In this document: positions 2,638 through 3,741 of the stretch, one piece after another
Position numbering within the stretch: position 1 is the first letter of the stretch
How the letters are laid out: each line of letters starts with the position of its first letter
NCBI GenBank assembly: GCA_014189675.1
Contig: DVAE01000020.1
Location: 1 to 5,913 of the forward strand
Direction: 5' to 3'
DNA: 5,913 bases
Source: Candidatus Undinarchaeales archaeon SRR5007147.bin71
GTDB taxonomy: Archaea; Undinarchaeota; Undinarchaeia; Undinarchaeales; Undinarchaeaceae
Notes under the pieces: generated by a model
Told to the model about the DNA's origin: nothing
What the model saw: only the letters and a program-made list of their open reading frames with translations
Databases searched by the model: none
Translations under genes and position numbers: made by a program

Positions 2638-3255
2638 ATGAACAATCAAGAAAAATTAGATCAGATACGCAAAAACATTCTTGAAAACACAAACTTGGCT
2701 CTCAGAGAAAGCGCCACAAATCTCGTTTTCGGAAAAGGAAATTCAGATGCTGAAATACTTCTAATCGGCGAAGCCCCCGGAGAAAAAGAAGACCTGCAGG
2801 GAATTCCCTTCGTCGGTCGAGCTGGAAAAGAGCTCGACAAACTTCTTCACATGATAAATCTCTCTCTCGAAGAGGTTTACATCGCTAATATTCTAAAATA
2901 CAGACCTCCAAAGAACCGAGATCCGAAGCAAAGCGAAATAGAAGAACATACTCCTTACTTAATAGAACAAATAATGGCAATCCAACCAAAAATTATCGTA
3001 ACTCTCGGCAATTTCGCAACAAAATTCGTCCTCGCCGGCTTTGACTCAAATAAAATGAAGGAAATAGATGGAATCTCAAAACTCCGGGGAAATCCTGTCA
3101 AAGTTTCCGTCGATAGCGCTAAATTCACAGTAATCCCAATTTACCATCCTGCTGCCATACTCTACAGACCGGCCTGGCGAGAACAGCTTGAAGAAGATTT
3201 CCAAAAAATTGGACAAGTCCTCCAGGAAAAAGATAAGTACAGTGGTGAACAATAA
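2638..3255 (+). CDS. udg: Family-4-type uracil-DNA glycosylase lacking the Fe-S cysteines
   Basis: Removes uracil, mainly from cytosine deamination, from DNA to start base excision repair. The protein has 205 residues, near the family size. Visible family-4 motifs are GEAPG (44-48) followed by EKEDLQGIPFVGRAG, the NILKYRPPKNRDP segment, the core strand IIVTLG, and YHPAAIL (169-175) with the conserved His. Canonical members hold a 4Fe-4S cluster with four cysteines. Here the matching positions read Asn17, Leu20, Tyr88 and His104, and the protein has no cysteine at all. The ATG at 2638 is chosen because its N-terminus matches the family start. An in-frame TTG at 2602 would add 12 residues and overlap serS. 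No strong ribosome binding site is seen. It probably shares a transcript with serS, though an AT-rich box at 2610-2620 could be its own promoter. Activity is inferred, not shown. Confidence 0.9.
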   Translation: MNNQEKLDQIRKNILENTNLALRESATNLVFGKGNSDAEILLIGEAPGEKEDLQGIPFVGRAGKELDKLLHMINLSLEEVYIANILKYRPPKNRDPKQSEIEEHTPYLIEQIMAIQPKIIVTLGNFATKFVLAGFDSNKMKEIDGISKLRGNPVKVSVDSAKFTVIPIYHPAAILYRPAWREQLEEDFQKIGQVLQEKDKYSGEQ

Positions 3256-3373: not shown

Positions 3374-3721
3374 TTACTTCCGCAAATGCTTCGGATTTTC
3401 CTTATGGTGAGTTCTTAAACCACCACTAAATTTCTTCGGAATATGCTTTAGTTCATGTATCAAAACATTGTCTTGTTTCTCCTTTGAAAGTTTGTCATAT
3501 CTTTCAGAGAGAACTTCTATTACATAGCGGGGCGGCATGAAGAGAGCCATCTGCCAAATTTTCGGAAAACTCCAAATTCTAGCTAATATTCTCTTCGATT
3601 TTGATCCGTGACTCCGAAAACAGTATATTTTGCTCGGATCTACATTAGAAAAACCATTCTCCGTTATAAGCTCAACAAGGCGTTTTTTTACGTCAGGAGC
3701 CGGCTCGTACTTAATAACCAT
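3374..3721 (-). CDS. Small predicted zinc metallopeptidase (COG4900-like)
   Basis: A 115-residue protein with a zinc-peptidase signature at the C-terminal end: VLIHELKHIP, with HELKH at 89-93, followed by FSGGLRTHH, where His105 or His106 could be the third ligand. The preceding stretch PRYVIEVLSERYDKLSKEKQ matches the usual layout of the small archaeal and phage putative metallopeptidase family (COG4900 / Put_Metallopep, from memory). The protein has no signal peptide or membrane span and is probably cytosolic. I chose the ATG at 3721, which gives MVIKYEPAPDVKKRL. An in-frame TTG at 3736 would add five residues, but the TATA box 26 nt before the ATG favours the shorter form with a leaderless message. 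It is divergent from mscS and convergent with the udg unit. The substrate is unknown, and no peptidase activity is established from sequence alone. Confidence 0.75.
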   Translation of the reverse strand: MVIKYEPAPDVKKRLVELITENGFSNVDPSKIYCFRSHGSKSKRILARIWSFPKIWQMALFMPPRYVIEVLSERYDKLSKEKQDNVLIHELKHIPKKFSGGLRTHHKENPKHLRK

Positions 3722-3741
3722 ACTAGCGATTAGCAATACTG

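Follow-up and report, generated by a model that had tools for sequence, protein, structure and literature searches.

The uracil-DNA glycosylase (UDG) gene in the window, meaning here the whole 5,913-nucleotide stretch of DNA that was analyzed, very probably encodes a working family-4 enzyme that, judging from its sequence and predicted structure, would no longer bind a [4Fe-4S] cluster. To our knowledge, family-4 UDGs are thought to carry an Fe-S cluster without exception, and the four cysteine ligands of the [4Fe-4S] cluster are often counted in the definition of the family. Here a family-4 UDG that appears to be active has lost these ligands, and the loss is real, clade-wide, and recurrent; the absence of the metal together with the retention of activity is the most likely state of the protein encoded in the window.

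Translation of the open reading frame (Table 1) gives a protein of 205 residues with no cysteine and no internal stop. At the cysteine rate of the other proteins in the window (0.65%), the chance of finding no cysteine in 205 residues is 0.26, so the cysteine-free sequence alone is unremarkable and the total absence of cysteine was rejected as evidence; the meaningful fact lies in four specific positions. When the protein is aligned with the family-4 UDG of S. tokodaii (PDB 4zbx; E 3.6e-43), the ligand cysteines correspond to Asn17, Leu20, Tyr88, and His104. This confirms, at the same coordinates, the original prediction of a cysteine-free protein with Asn, Leu, Tyr, and His at the ligand positions. 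None of the four cysteines that ligate the [4Fe-4S] cluster of family-4 UDGs is present, and the protein is thus a cluster-less family-4 homolog by descent rather than a canonical Fe-S member. In profile searches, it scores 196 bits with the family-4 model TIGR00758 (UDG_fam4; cut-off 125.3) and 120.8 bits with PF03167. The narrower archaeal equivalog model NF040953 (Arch_udg) gives 210.4 bits, below its cut-off of 250, and 198-216 bits for other members of the cluster-less clade, while the UdgX model TIGR03914 gives 101.1 bits, below its cut-off of 189.95. No cluster-free UDG family (1, 2, 3, or TDG) was the best profile, and the NCBIfam matches are all to family-4 or UdgX models.

Table 1. 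Features of the cluster-less UDG gene, in coordinates of the window.
Feature	Position	Strand	Remarks
Cluster-less family-4 uracil-DNA glycosylase CDS	2638..3255	+	205 aa, ATG start, in-frame TTG at 2602
Asn17, codon AAC	2686..2688	+	First ligand position; Cys in 129/129 intact relatives
Leu20, codon TTG	2695..2697	+	Second ligand position; clade mostly Leu or leftover Cys
Ala26	2713..2715	+	Arg/Lys in 126/129 intact relatives; basic residue gone in every cluster-less group
GEAPG motif with catalytic-site Glu45	2767..2781	+	Invariant
Asn84, active-site column	2887..2889	+	Invariant in clade
Tyr88, codon TAC	2899..2901	+	Third ligand position; Tyr in 33/33 clade sequences
His104, codon CAT	2947..2949	+	Fourth ligand position; His in 33/33 clade sequences and 20/20 of nested group B
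HPAAIL motif with catalytic His170	3145..3162	+	Invariant

The AlphaFold2 model of the protein, predicted from an input alignment of 44 natural sequences, has a mean pLDDT of 94.4, and the high confidence extends to the N-terminal helix and the KYRPP loop. The model is confident across the whole former cluster site, with a confidence that is partly inherited from the homologs in the alignment. Its best matches in the PDB are all family-4 enzymes (4zbx, Z 29.6; 1ui1, Z 28.4, 1.3 A over 182 aa), compared with a Z of about 16 for human TDG, and at Z 28-30 to family-4 structures the predicted fold is that of the family. UdgX, which retains its cluster, has a closely related fold (Z about 25), but the window protein falls below the cut-off of the UdgX model. 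The claim of a cluster-free family-4 UDG therefore holds on the ligands gone at aligned positions, the TIGR00758 score, and the family-4 structures as best matches. In comparison with the canonical enzymes of S. tokodaii (4zbx), T. thermophilus (1ui0/1ui1), and T. maritima (1vk2), to which it is 36-43% identical, the protein has the same fold, length, catalytic motifs, and KxRPPxNRxP loop, but it has none of the four cluster cysteines and no basic residue at position 26, Tyr88 and His104 being invariant instead.

The loss is common to a clade of close relatives, as the original prediction had envisaged. Identical residues stand at all four positions in two further genomes of the genus (92-94% identical), and a contig scan found six further archaeal relatives at 57-64% identity without the ligand set (four named Woesearchaeota, AR5, and PL23a), two of which keep the second-position cysteine. 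Searches of the family, order, class, and phylum from the window genome covered six genomes; a wider survey, centered on another archaeal genome, covered 371 genomes of one relative's phylum, in which 79 further regions were read. It brought together 33 distinct window-type sequences, with Tyr88 and His104 invariant, and the family alignment holds 129 relatives with cysteine at all four ligand columns (CCCC). Position 17 varies freely within the clade. Thirteen of the 33 window-type sequences have cysteine at position 20, together with His104 and a Glu, Asn, or His residue at position 17, and this Cys20 is likely a relic of the lost site. A nested group of 20 sequences, group B (L112, L113, L115-L118, and L120-L133), has Cys88 with His104, an invariant Cys26, and a shortened N-terminal linker, the shortened segment being the one after the N-terminal cysteine region. 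Three other sequences (L176, L035, and L043) have one ligand swapped (CCHC, CCDC, and CCSC, respectively) in an otherwise intact UDG.

For the trees, the columns of the four ligands were blanked out. A single clade (support 100/100; 99 in a second tree) unites the window type with group B and three CCCC sequences; within it, both group B (support 100/99) and the CCCC sequences L108, L114, and L119 are nested in the window type, suggesting repeated loss or else a regain. The nested CCCC sequences suggest a more complicated history than a single loss in the archaeal clade; one loss stays compatible with the data, as a tree that keeps the clade's cluster-less sequences in one group is not rejected (AU p 0.249). 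Residues Cys26, Cys88, and His104 of group B could form a new metal site, which is possible from their conservation in sequence. It is rather unlikely that the loss was reversed there, an ancestor that had Tyr88 and His104 but no cluster giving rise to a site of Cys26 (frequently accompanied by Cys23 in a displaced CxxC), Cys88, and His104 that holds either a metal or a cluster evolved anew; if true, one clade would first have lost a cofactor and then regained a metal site. Other ligand losses are single sequences elsewhere on the tree, namely L136 (CHLF), L157 (DLRY), and L193 (DLFA), the placement of the last being unsure because of its long branch.

A further loss is found in the bacterial order Balneolales, where one sequence without cluster ligands (L065) is placed by the tree among bacterial sequences. 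Matches were present in 110 of 128 Balneolales genomes, and 50 loci spread down the ranking were sampled, of which 49 aligned clearly. None of these 49 has cysteine at any of the four ligand positions; the replacements are Leu20 (49/49), His88 (49/49), and Ser104 (48/49). Because this replacement is unlike the archaeal one and L065 falls among bacteria, it represents a separate loss event. The loss is order-wide in Balneolales, independent of the archaeal loss, and ligand loss is recurrent overall.

A basic residue at position 26 is found in 126 of 129 CCCC sequences, versus 0/33 of the window type, 0/20 of group B, and 0/49 of the Balneolales loci, a parallel second-shell change in cluster-less groups. 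Its disappearance from all of them would be expected if the negatively charged cluster is truly gone, since Arg26 of canonical enzymes probably balances the charge of the anionic cluster. Canonical enzymes use the cluster as a structural clip for a DNA-facing loop, held by two cysteines in the N-terminal segment and two on either side of the KCRPPxNR loop. In the window protein, Asn17, Leu20, Tyr88, and His104 stand in place of these cysteines, with Arg26 gone as well, and what most likely holds the loop is direct packing, or hydrogen bonds, about the invariant pair Tyr88 and His104. That packing has taken over from the cluster is plausible, and catalysis through Glu45, Asn84, and His170 would be unchanged. 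In the family-4 UDGs of P. furiosus and A. fulgidus, Cys-to-Ser mutants lost only about 40% of activity, so loss of the cluster appears tolerable, and the cluster is thought mainly to stabilize a loop (PMC5295032).

Could the protein be catalytically dead, or a repurposed uracil-binding protein that lost its cluster under relaxed constraint? The UDG-like domain of phage SPO1 DNA polymerase, with S-D-Y-S at the ligand columns and no GEAPG, indicates that loss of the cluster can go with loss of catalysis, but this reading is quite improbable for the window protein. All 33 clade members conserve the catalytic columns in GEAPG, Asn84, KxRPPxNRxP, and HPAAIL, and Glu45, Asn84, Lys87, Arg89, Asn93, Arg94, and His170 are invariant. 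All the catalytic motifs of the family (GEAPG, the Asn of the NxxKxRPP segment, and HPxxxL) are therefore in place, the Asn84 column presumably being the site of uracil recognition. Within the genus, dN/dS is 0.11-0.16, indicating purifying selection, and the gene is the sole PF03167 (UDG-superfamily) gene found in the window genome (G000, 83% complete), in G001 and G002, and in 30 of the 33 genomes of the clade. Intact catalytic residues, low dN/dS, and the only UDG-superfamily gene found together make a non-functional protein unlikely, and the earlier judgment that a dead paralog is the less likely case stands. Binding of another metal, such as Zn, or of an incomplete cluster through the remaining histidine and neighboring residues is highly improbable: the 13 clade members in which Glu17, Asn17, or His17 is combined with Cys20 and His104, as well as the conserved Cys26, Cys88, and His104 of group B, would fit such a site, but the window protein, with no cysteine, has His104 as its only possible soft-metal ligand, and position 17 is free to vary across the clade. 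The probability of an artefact, whether sequencing error, misalignment, or confusion with a naturally cluster-free UDG family, is negligible, and no point supporting it was found among the data gathered here. Three assemblies of the genus concur on all four replacements and differ by a synonymous change (CAT/CAC) in the His104 codon; the alignment is free of gaps around KxRPP and the fourth ligand; and family-4 models and structures score clearly best. Each of these three routes to refuting a cluster-free family-4 UDG thus fails.

A working family-4 UDG without a cluster is also compatible with iron limitation, or missing Fe-S assembly, as the cause of the loss. The original prediction had suggested iron limitation as a driver, and in its favor SufB/D is absent from some genomes of the wider group, and some have an endonuclease III that is without its cluster cysteines. 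Such a cause is nevertheless unlikely. Two SUFBD genes are present in each of G000, G001, and G002, and among these incomplete genomes Suf is commoner in those with the window type (25/33) than in those with CCCC sequences (10/21), with 8/20 for group B. Moreover, endonuclease III of G001 and G002 keeps its cluster motif (C-x6-C-x2-C-x5-C). Since Suf is present and this motif is kept, scarcity of Fe-S clusters is not a sufficient cause, and the suggestion is disfavored by both the SufB/D census and the endonuclease III motifs. A drift toward low cysteine, as discussed for haloarchaeal proteins (PMC5861453), is possible as a background, because the local proteome is cysteine-poor. Elsewhere in the archaeal group, endonuclease III homologs of seven genomes (L215, L217, L218, L219, L221, L222, and L224) are without the C-terminal four-cysteine motif, and a second base-excision glycosylase thus appears cluster-less in part of the group. 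The endonuclease III of the window genome (L198; G000:C18:623-1198) has three of the four cluster cysteines (CKSPKAKCTEC) followed by a divergent end, and the fourth is not restored in any other reading frame.

Loss of a structural cluster has precedents in other proteins. A clusterless MutY was reportedly described by Trasvina-Arenas in 2016 (cited in PMC5295032) and is mentioned in PMC11078426. It is likewise a DNA glycosylase lineage with natural loss of a [4Fe-4S] cluster, already known as such, but it has the HhH superfamily fold and another cluster domain. Haloarchaeal TFE-beta and RNA polymerase subunit D are also archaeal proteins that have lost a structural Fe-S cluster, with complex formation kept in cluster-less TFE-beta (PMC5861453); they differ in being transcription proteins with folds unrelated to that of the UDG. 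The SPO1 polymerase domain belongs to the UDG superfamily and is also without cluster ligands, but its catalytic motif is degenerate and it is fused to a polymerase. Other phage UDG copies examined keep CCCC. In Brevibacterium phage Cantare, a protein annotated as uracil-DNA glycosylase (L280) reads S-M-Y-V at the ligand columns, and its active-site motif is degenerate. Among the open-access papers searched, none was found to report family-4 UDGs that lack the cluster by nature yet are catalytically intact.

For the presence of Fe-S clusters in DNA repair enzymes, two reasons are under discussion, a structural clip and redox sensing through DNA charge transport, and redox and charge-transport behavior has been reported for the A. 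fulgidus family-4 enzyme (PMC9266487). Working cluster-less orthologs that are the sole UDG found, with at least two origins and a different replacement in each, would show that the enzyme can fill its cellular role without the cluster, and cluster-bearing and cluster-less orthologs provide matched pairs for testing the charge-transport idea. A cluster-free way of life would have been tried by nature several times in family-4 UDGs, in archaea and, separately, in Balneolales, and family annotation is no safe basis for assuming Fe-S content. Two other genes of the window may be mentioned. An open-ended protein of 431 aa (3-1298, +) contains HELGHWLG, a metallopeptidase-like motif, and has no Pfam match; beside the UDG gene, at 3374-3736 (-), a match to PF18894, 'putative phage metallopeptidase', is found in this archaeal genome.
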